This document shows positions 1 to 2,786 of a DNA stretch of 49,887 bases, one piece after another. The stretch is from Acidobacteriaceae bacterium (GTDB lineage Bacteria; Acidobacteriota; Terriglobia; Terriglobales; Acidobacteriaceae). The notes beneath the pieces were generated by a model. The model saw only the letters and a list, made by a program, of their open reading frames with translations, had not been told where the DNA came from and did not search any database. Where the stretch lies: NCBI GenBank assembly GCA_003165795.1, contig PMWW01000149.1, forward strand, positions 735 through 50,621, in the 5' to 3' direction. Position 1 is the first letter of the stretch, and every line of letters starts with the position of its first letter. Position numbers and translations under genes: made by a program.

Positions 1-36
1 GCATTCTGAGGGCAAGGTCACTATGCGCATCAGGGT

Positions 37-426
37 TTGCGGGTAGTGGAGGGCCAACGCGTCATGCAAGCGGCAAGCGATATCTTTCTCGGCTGGGCAC
101 GTACCAAGGAGCACGATTACTATCTTCGCCAGTTCCGCGACATGAAGGTTTCCGCCGAAATCGAAACCTTCCGGCCGGCCACTCTGACTGGGTACGCTAC
201 CTTGTGCGGCTGGGCCCTGGCGCGAGCTCACGCCAAAGCAGGGGATGCGGCAATGATTGCCGGATACCTGGGATCGAACGATCAGTTCGACGACGCCCTG
301 GCAAAATACTCGGAAGCCTACGCTGACCAGGCTGAACGTGACTTCAAATCCTTCCAGGCAGCGATTCGCTCCGGGCGCCTCTCCACAGAGCCAGCGAAGG
401 ATGCTGGATTGGAGTTCTTGTTATAG
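37..426 (+). CDS. DUF2252 family protein, C-terminal fragment
   Basis: The reading frame carries the C-terminal signature of DUF2252 proteins (RVVEGQRVMQAASDIFLGW, then YYLRQFRDMK and a final YADQAERDF stretch). The family is large (usually over 400 residues) and of unknown biochemical role, so only the last third or less is here. Homology continues upstream of the TTG at 37 (codons 19-36 read HYAHQG), but an in-frame TGA sits at 7-9. The expected upstream residues (ILRARS) read in another frame (3-20), so the gene may be frameshifted near position 20 rather than just cut by the window edge. It lies at the right end of a putative integrated element. Family assignment is fairly secure; whether it is functional is doubtful. 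Confidence 0.7.
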   Translation: MRVVEGQRVMQAASDIFLGWARTKEHDYYLRQFRDMKVSAEIETFRPATLTGYATLCGWALARAHAKAGDAAMIAGYLGSNDQFDDALAKYSEAYADQAERDFKSFQAAIRSGRLSTEPAKDAGLEFLL

Positions 427-946
427 CAAGAACGCGAGCTAGTGCCTTCGCCTGAAACTGTCCTAAATAGGTACGAGTTTGACCCGAAAGGACATCTTGG
501 CTGTCCAGAGGATGGATGGCCGCCGACGCGAGCCAGAAGTAGTCATATTGAGGGTGTGCGGGGCGCTTTCGATACGGCGACTTGAAGGAAGCCCCTGGCC
601 GTGGGATTTGAATGGTCCCGGGTTGAGATGGGATGCGCTTCTTTGAAATCCAGTGCAGCTCGTCCGCAGCCATCGGCAAGGCTGCTTAACGTGCTTTATA
701 TTCCCTTTCGTAAGGCCCCTCGATGAGCGATAGAATTGCTTGCTATCGCTCACGCAAGAAACACGGTCTATCGCTCATGACACGATTGGCAAGAATGGGG
801 AACTGGTGGAGGGGTAGGGTGGAAGTCGGTTTTAGCTTTTTCCAACCCACAACCCAACCCACAAAATGTGATGTCTTGTATGTCTTCCGCGTACTTAGGC
901 AGTCCCCGCGGTCTTGTAAGTCGTTGTAAAACCTAACCTTGTCAGA
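427..946. other. gene-poor end of putative integrated element
   Basis: No convincing coding region was found in these 520 bases. Short frames on both strands (for example 463-753 minus and 723-929 plus) show no recognisable domain and no good ribosome site. The stretch contains an inverted-repeat cluster at 723-778 and ends exactly where tRNA-Val sequence begins at 947. It reads like the terminal, att-proximal DNA of a mobile element. Confidence 0.45.
723..778. repeat. three-arm inverted repeat GAGCGATAG/CTATCGCTC
   Basis: GAGCGATAG (725-733) is followed by its exact complement CTATCGCTC (743-751), with a 9-base loop. A second complement copy, CTATCGCTCAT (768-778), pairs with ATGAGCGATAG (723-733) over 11 bases. 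The arrangement could be binding sites for a recombinase or regulator near the end of the element, or two alternative hairpins. No protein partner is visible. Confidence 0.5.
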
Positions 947-991
947 TTCACACGGTGGAAGTCACAGGTTCGAATCCTGTAGCGCCCACCA
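947..991 (+). other. 3' half of tRNA-Val(CAC), att-site remnant
   Basis: The 45 bases form a canonical tRNA 3' half: anticodon loop TTCACAC (947-953, anticodon CAC), stem strand GGTGG, 5-base variable loop AAGTC, T stem and loop ACAGG-TTCGAAT-CCTGT, acceptor strand AGCGCCC and encoded ACCA (988-991). A complete gene would need CCACC just before the loop, but the sequence there is TCAGA, and no D-arm or GGGCGCT acceptor strand in tRNA context lies within reach. The break at the anticodon loop is where many tyrosine integrases cross over. The element should therefore lie to the left, with the intact tRNA-Val outside the window. Confidence 0.8.
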
Positions 992-1052: not shown

Positions 1053-2786
1053 TCACCATTCATCACCATCTCCGAGAGTTTCTCTTCCGCTTCCCGTTGA
1101 TGGGCGGGAACCGGAAACGTGTAAATTCCGAGCGTGGTTGTGGCTGGGGAATGTCCCGGTTGCACCTGTGCGCTGCGCTGTTCGGCGTGTGCGATGCTGC
1201 GAGCCTGGCCGTCGATGAAAGTTTCGTCGGCTTGTGAAGAGCCGCCACAGGACGGCCGCCAAGGCCACCAGCCCCACGCTCCACACCGCGAACGCCAAGT
1301 GTACGACCCACGCAGGTGCCACGCCGACCCGCCGCAACAGGAAGGGCAGAAAATTCCAGGTAGTGATGTGGACGTAGTCCCATGGGTCCCAGTGCATGGC
1401 ATAGTTGGTTAAGCCCCAGGCGTCCATTTTTCCCAACCCGAACCCCACGATGTTCCGCATGCGCAGGACAATCACGAAGGTCGGATGGCCCAGTGTCTCC
1501 ATCTGGTAAATTTCGAGCGGTAACCAGAAGGCGAGCGATGCAACCTGGATCACAGCGCTGATCGCTAAGGTCCCTATTCCTACGGCCCAAACCAGTTTCC
1601 CCACTTGGTTGCGATAACGTAGCAGCAGCGGCACCGCCAGTAATGCTGCCAGCTCAACCGCGGTCGAAACGTAGCGGTCGCCCCAGGCGAAGTCGCCACT
1701 CCACACGGTATATTGCGCGTAAAAACTGATGTACGCCAGGAGCAGGAGGCATCCGGTGATGACGTATGCCTTGACGACTGGGCTGAACCGGTTCCAAGCC
1801 ACGGCGGCGAGCACCATCATGAGGACCAGCAACGGATCGAAAAGAAAGATCGACTTTTCCGGCGCAAATAGTGCTCCTAAAAAGCCGACGTGGAATGGTG
1901 TCTCGAACGGATAGCTGGCCGGCAGGGCTGGATTCCGCTGCCGGGCTTCGCCAGCAACCACGCTCACGTAGGTGTTGAAGAACGAGCCAAAGCGGTAGTA
2001 CTGGTAGAGGCGGTCGATCAACCCGAAAAGCACGTAAACCGGAAGAGCGGTCGCAATGTAGGTTCGACATCGATTCCAACGCTGGCGGTCGCGGACTCCT
2101 TCGAACCACAGAGCCAGCAGCAAGAAAAGGGCTCCAGCCAGCAGATCCATGCCCGTAGTAAGGCGGGTGAGCAGGTTAAGTCCGAAGGCTCCCGAGCCAA
2201 TCAGAAGAGCGCGTAGTTTGCCATTCCGCAACCACTCGTATTGATAAGAGAGCCCGCTGAGCGTTAGCAGAAAGATGTAGTTGTTCTCCATCATGTTCTG
2301 CGTGTAATGGAGGTGCGTCGTTAATAGCAGCAGAGCCAGAACGCCCGCGACGGCAGGCTTCACCCCGAAGTTCAATTGCCGCAGAAAGCGGAAGCAAATC
2401 AGCGCGGTCAAGACGTTGACCAGGATGTTAATGCTGTAGCTGACAATGATGTTGCGGACACTGGGATCGTTCCCGTTGTAATCGGCGAAGACGGTAAGCC
2501 GCTCCACGTAGGTTCCCACCACCTCCGCCGGCAGCAGGAGGAGTGACTGTCCTATGCCATACCAACTCTGCAACCTGCCGCCGCGGCCATGCACGCCGAA
2601 TTCGGGATACTCCTGGGGAAACACCGGCGGTTCCGCGGTCCATAGCGCGTGCGCGGATTGCAGCCGATGTTGCGTGTCGGCGGTGCCTAACTCTCCCGAT
2701 TGCACCACGAATGCAATGAGACCGGCTGCCAGGGCCAGCAGGAAGAGCGGGTCACGGAACCAGCGGCGAATAGGATGCATCACCAT
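1053..2786 (-). CDS. polytopic membrane protein, GT-C glycosyltransferase-like
   Basis: A 577-residue protein with roughly ten to twelve hydrophobic helices spread from residue 12 to about 510 and a basic, low-complexity hydrophilic tail. The first extracytoplasmic loop contains an acidic SGELGTADTQHR segment, a position where GT-C (PMT/ArnT-like) lipid-linked sugar transferases keep catalytic acidic residues. No family-specific motif is certain. Inner-membrane location is clear; transfer of sugars from polyprenyl carriers is only inferred from topology. It is the first gene to the right of the tRNA-Val remnant, so it probably belongs to the native chromosome. ATG at 2786 is used here; a second ATG two codons later is equally possible. 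Confidence 0.6.
   Translation of the reverse strand: MVMHPIRRWFRDPLFLLALAAGLIAFVVQSGELGTADTQHRLQSAHALWTAEPPVFPQEYPEFGVHGRGGRLQSWYGIGQSLLLLPAEVVGTYVERLTVFADYNGNDPSVRNIIVSYSINILVNVLTALICFRFLRQLNFGVKPAVAGVLALLLLTTHLHYTQNMMENNYIFLLTLSGLSYQYEWLRNGKLRALLIGSGAFGLNLLTRLTTGMDLLAGALFLLLALWFEGVRDRQRWNRCRTYIATALPVYVLFGLIDRLYQYYRFGSFFNTYVSVVAGEARQRNPALPASYPFETPFHVGFLGALFAPEKSIFLFDPLLVLMMVLAAVAWNRFSPVVKAYVITGCLLLLAYISFYAQYTVWSGDFAWGDRYVSTAVELAALLAVPLLLRYRNQVGKLVWAVGIGTLAISAVIQVASLAFWLPLEIYQMETLGHPTFVIVLRMRNIVGFGLGKMDAWGLTNYAMHWDPWDYVHITTWNFLPFLLRRVGVAPAWVVHLAFAVWSVGLVALAAVLWRLFTSRRNFHRRPGSQHRTRRTAQRTGATGTFPSHNHARNLHVSGSRPSTGSGRETLGDGDEW

Follow-up and report, generated by a model that had tools for sequence, protein, structure and literature searches.

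The question raised by this locus is why the 3' half of a tRNA-Val(CAC) gene stands in an acidobacterial genome with no 5' half beside it. The window analysed here is a stretch of 49,887 nucleotides from an Acidobacteriaceae bacterium (assembly GCA_003165795.1, contig PMWW01000149.1), and its positions 947-991 read TTCACACGGTGGAAGTCACAGGTTCGAATCCTGTAGCGCCCACCA. A first-pass annotation had explained these bases as the attachment-site duplicate left by a tyrosine integrase that uses the anticodon loop, with the inserted element lying to the left of 947. In our analysis it is highly probable that 947-991 is indeed the distal junction of an integrated anticodon-loop tRNA island, with the element extending left from base 946. 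The features on which the argument draws are collected in Table 1; below, G-numbers denote genomes (G000 being that of the window) and C-numbers their contigs.

Table 1. Features at the left end of the window (positions are those of the window).
Feature	Position	Strand	Remarks
DUF2252 gene, C-terminal part	1..426	+	PF10009 profile positions 285-391, E 5e-41; cargo truncated by scaffold gap at left edge
Distal attachment arm of the element, 111 bp	836..946	+	155 bp ending at 991 88% identical in G002/G004; precedes other tRNA 3' halves in Acidobacteria
Doubled motif AACCCACAACCCAACCCACA	844..863	+	candidate integrase arm-binding sites; sole copy in window
tRNA-Val(CAC) 3' half, anticodon loop to CCA	947..991	+	displaced target fragment at distal end; exact match to intact genes in G006/G008; single copy in own genome
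Tyrosine integrase C-terminal stub, ~47 codons	998..1141	-	reads TTTLGIYTFPVPAHQREAEEKLSEMV..., points at tRNA fragment; G007/G003 DNA identity
PMT_2-like membrane protein	1053..2786	-	weak PF13231; matched in 9/9 genus genomes; marks chromosomal side

The tRNA fragment and the arm that precedes it

Read as a tRNA, the fragment comprises a seven-nucleotide anticodon loop (TTCACAC, anticodon CAC), the 3' side of the anticodon stem (GGTGG), a variable loop (AAGTC), a perfect T arm (ACAGG TTCGAAT CCTGT) and the 3' strand of the acceptor (AGCGCCC), followed by A and CCA. The bases that precede it, TCAGA, are unable to pair with GGTGG, and hence no 5' half is adjacent; neither ARAGORN nor Rfam at its gathering score reported a tRNA in the window, and no tRNA 5' half was found to the left of the fragment on its contig. 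The first-pass description of a perfect 3' half with its 5' strand replaced was borne out by the exact identity to the intact genes of two sister species in the same genus (G006 and G008), for which the chance expectation over 45 bp is approximately 3e-15 (both strands of a genome of this size), and the 45-mer has no second occurrence in its own genome with up to three mismatches allowed. The stem strand that had been expected there, CCACC, is the one carried by a tRNA-Val(CAC) gene on another contig of the same genome (C28), while the genus relatives have CCATC, paired through a G-U. At the level of sequence comparison, these observations support the reading of 947-991 as the truncated 3' part of a genuine tRNA gene and as an ordinary insertion scar of a mobile island.

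The DNA immediately ahead of the fragment is informative as to what did the cutting. The 155 bp that run through 991 recur in G002 and G004, where they likewise lead into this fragment but the right flanks differ from that of the window, and a common end followed by divergent flanks marks the end of a mobile unit. A search with the whole arm matched 10 of 60 genomes in the family, some of them weakly. In a further survey, a 20-bp pattern derived from the arm was run against genome contigs and the matched stretches were then inspected; of 26 such stretches, the arm was seen to extend further in the 18 acidobacterial records, and the matches in other phyla contained no arm outside the 20-bp pattern. 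Two matches on viral contigs likewise lacked any arm sequence outside it and appear to be chance hits, and a comparison of the arm with plasmids gave no match. The arm is followed by the 3' half of tRNA-Val(CAC), Val(GAC), Asp(GTC), Ile(GAT) or Phe(GAA), in all undecayed copies from the anticodon loop onward; several arms elsewhere are trailed by a short tRNA stretch or the core only, and these are presumably decayed copies. The family to which the scar at 947-991 belongs is one of soil-bacterium islands that break several tRNA genes, of different types, at a common position. In the window, in G002, in G004 and for the other tRNA types, the match to the tRNA sets in at the anticodon loop, which places the crossover in that loop, its exact point there being inferred.

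Near the left end of the arm lies the doubled motif. At the distal ends of the window's element, G002 and G004 it (AACCCACAANCCAACCCACA) starts 147 nt ahead of the tRNA 3' end, and the integrase ends of G008, of G002 and of contig C91 in the window's own genome have a near-identical doubled motif 41-42 nt past the tRNA. It is reasonable to postulate that the doubled AACCCACAA motif serves as an arm site of the integrase.

It might be supposed that deletion or rearrangement, with no mobile element involved, removed the 5' half and left a mere tRNA pseudogene, as the locus is rearranged relative to its relatives and the contig stops short of an intact gene. We consider this very improbable, for in place of the 5' half there stands a conserved arm that precedes tRNAs of several types, and the break falls at the anticodon loop, neither of which would be expected of a pseudogene.

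The two flanks of the fragment

The contig begins 1,680 bases to the left of the fragment, with scaffold gaps in between, short runs of N at contig positions 593 and 733; one gap lies directly left of window base 1, and the contig piece beyond it holds part of an IS3-type transposase. Such gaps, and the fact that other contigs break or are gapped inside tRNAs, might suggest that the assembly has joined unrelated pieces at a tRNA repeat. The sequence is gap-free from base 1 of the window to the fragment, however; furthermore, the junction of arm and fragment recurs in the separately assembled G002 and G004 and in many other Acidobacteria, and that of fragment and integrase stub recurs in G007 and G003, so that a chimera, too, has very little to recommend it.

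The stub to the right of the fragment, which was recognised as the C terminus of an integrase by eye and from its position (it is too short for Pfam, which gave no match), raises the question of whether the element might instead lie on the right and the host on the left, since the stub points directly at the fragment as an integrase would at the integrase end of an island. This arrangement is, in our estimate, just as improbable as the two preceding ones. The stub amounts to merely 47 codons and also follows the uninterrupted tRNA in G007 (87% identity over 196 bp) and G003 (76% over 153 bp), which argues that it is an old scar predating the present insertion. The genes past the stub are present in all nine genus genomes, and it is on the left that the mobile arm is found, together with a DUF2252 cargo gene that is matched in only three of the nine; among these matches is a second copy in the same genome (contig C49; 86% DNA identity), which lies approximately 3 kb from an integrase. 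The placement of the element to the left of 947 is as such upheld by the distal arm, and the first-pass annotation had both the mechanism and the side right, but it overlooked the older integrase remnant with which the right side starts. The right-hand DNA cannot be taken for wholly untouched host sequence, and the presence of this remnant indicates that the locus has been hit repeatedly.

Beyond the stub, the genes are part of the genus core but are rearranged relative to the relatives, in which the PMT_2-like gene occupies a different chromosomal place, mostly on contigs other than those bearing the tRNA site. This rearrangement of the neighbourhood limits the host synteny shared with G003 and G007 on the right to approximately 150-200 bp. 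As a separate observation, the last approximately 60 codons of the PMT_2-like gene are unmatched in the complete copies of the relatives and, in another frame, overlap the integrase stub, which suggests that the 3' end of the gene was replaced at the rearrangement junction.

Uninterrupted targets, a probable left junction and the integrase end

Intact tRNA-Val(CAC) genes followed directly by the right flank of the window are found on G003:C448 and G007:C143. G007 was considered as a simple empty site and rejected, as its right flank is the integrase stub, and it therefore represents an uninterrupted tRNA beside an older scar. Among the relatives compared we saw none that carries the fragment without inserted DNA, the finding that the first-pass annotation had named as counting against it. 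The anticodon loop is also the usual seat of group I and other introns, but no intron family was detected within 2 kb around the fragment, no 5' half lies to the left on its contig and the relatives' genes are uninterrupted, which leaves an intron the least probable of all the explanations weighed here.

The integrase end of the element at tRNA-Val(CAC) is missing from the assembly, and in its own genome the element is seen at its distal end only. A candidate for the other junction is nonetheless available. Contig C28 terminates 53 bases into an intact tRNA-Val(CAC) that is preceded by a broken integrase, and its left flank is 76-77% identical to G003:C448, whose right flank is in turn 76% identical to the window. 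On G003:C448 the end of that integrase, an intact tRNA and the stub are contiguous, and the flanks of C28 and of the window, when joined at the anticodon loop, align with it end to end; judged from this alignment, C28 is probably the left junction of the same insertion. The two contigs are physically unlinked, and the 23 nucleotides that they share differ at one base, as they should if the 3' half of the regenerated tRNA came from the element. The host left flank of the relatives (the ligD side) is present on contig C74 with no tRNA adjoining, and the right flank of G007 maps to other contigs of the genome. In place of the region upstream of the relatives' tRNA-Val(CAC), C74 (L100:1-1500) contains two similar repeats of approximately 180 bp (GCTGAAAAAGTCGG...CTTTTTCAGCAACCTG), resembling a small mobile repeat.

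The events that would have produced this arrangement can be set out as follows. A tyrosine integrase would have recombined a site on the element with the host gene for tRNA-Val(CAC), the exchange falling in the anticodon loop. The element would have brought its own copy of the 3' half, such that the host 5' half and the element 3' half together would form a working tRNA at the integrase end, while the host's own 3' half would have been displaced to the far end, where it now stands behind the distal arm of the element. Integrase ends of the expected kind are seen in the relatives, and these, together with the arm family, lend support to the attribution of the duplicate to an integrase of this type. 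On G008:C44 the order is an intact tRNA-Val(CAC), the doubled motif and a convergent tyrosine integrase of 391 aa (PF00589, E 1e-23), and G002 has the same layout. The closest relative of the G008 integrase in the genome of the window (71%) is on C91 beside a tRNA that was identified as Val(GAC) by eye and is gapped at the anticodon; the 3' half of this tRNA is the same as in Val(GAC) fragments elsewhere. In other genera, relatives of the integrase at 37-70% identity adjoin tRNA-Phe, Val(GAC) and Asp, and these relatives sit beside the tRNA at the end of the element opposite the distal arm.

A complete example is present on one contig, G082:C9, which runs from tRNA-Phe and the integrase through 38.8 kb to the distal arm and a tRNA-Phe 3' half identical at 45 of 45 positions. 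Both ends, the integrase and the identical 45-bp repeats are thus in hand, and the tRNA-Phe there is fully regenerated. Among the products it encodes are a Rep3-type initiator (PF01051), a ParA-like protein that is 87% identical to its counterpart at the same place in the Val(CAC) element of G002, and an Ssp/DndB phosphorothioate defence set. The latter (G082:C9:49002-62392, L216) comprises genes like SspA, B, C, F, G and H along with a DndB-like gene; the SspC and SspF matches are partial over their profiles, and the boundary between these two genes may thus have been drawn at an unusual point.

Other arrangements were noted at tRNA genes in these genomes. Integrase genes lie upstream of the tRNA 5' end and on the same strand at G000:C28:28345-28989, G000:C159:2748-3511 and G003:C448:1-557, as though the 5' side supplied or bounded the tRNA, a mirror of the usual layout. 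On G005:C65, G008:C132 and G002:C178, the sequence directly after the tRNA-Val(CAC) 3' half resembles an integrase end belonging to another element, which suggests that elements are arrayed in tandem at this gene; tandem arrays of tRNA-gene islands are known (PMC4383910). Tyrosine integrases also directly adjoin many tRNA genes in G000 (contigs C89, C94, C161, C61, C54, C107 and C159), mostly convergent at the 3' end, and the genome is by this measure rich in tRNA-site insertions.

Relation to known systems and implications

The anticodon-loop tRNA island is a well-known kind of element, of which the present case is a further member. The Islander compilation contains 2083 anticodon-centred islands, the commoner of the two crossover classes tallied, and 3760 with a 3' fragment (PMC4383910). 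Those islands have a displaced 3' tDNA fragment at one end and the regenerated tRNA with the integrase at the other. The exact 3' half at 947-991 is such a fragment; the element in the genome of the window is known from its distal end alone, and the opposite end is seen complete in G082. Mycobacteriophages that integrate at tRNA anticodon loops are similar in employing a tyrosine integrase and a core of 30-45 bp that includes the tRNA 3' half, and in rebuilding the tRNA at one junction (PMC10865867); the integrase described here, however, is less than 27% identical to the phage integrases listed there. The two elements whose ends were read (G002 and G082) show plasmid-type replication genes. 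Next to the distal arm they encode a ParA-like protein and predicted initiators of the RPA or Rep3 type, and in this G002 and G082 resemble integrative plasmid-like elements, which have Rep and ParA near one end; the interior of the element in the genome of the window is absent from the assembly.

In a limited literature search, no precedent was found for a conserved 111-bp distal arm spanning five tRNA types. One proposal, which we regard as standing at about an even chance, is that a single acidobacterial integrase clade has moved between five or more tRNA targets (Val-CAC, Val-GAC, Asp, Ile and Phe) at the anticodon loop, and has retained a near-constant 111-bp distal arm with the doubled arm motif at fixed spacing. 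Were this so, the arm alone would locate island ends genome-wide, and the choice of target would be set by the short core only. The analysis fixes the right boundary of an island in an Acidobacteriota genome to the base, and the signature of arm plus tRNA 3' half finds related islands in broken metagenome assemblies, in which integrase and fragment lie on separate contigs. In at least one relative, such an island carries a phosphorothioate (Ssp) defence system.
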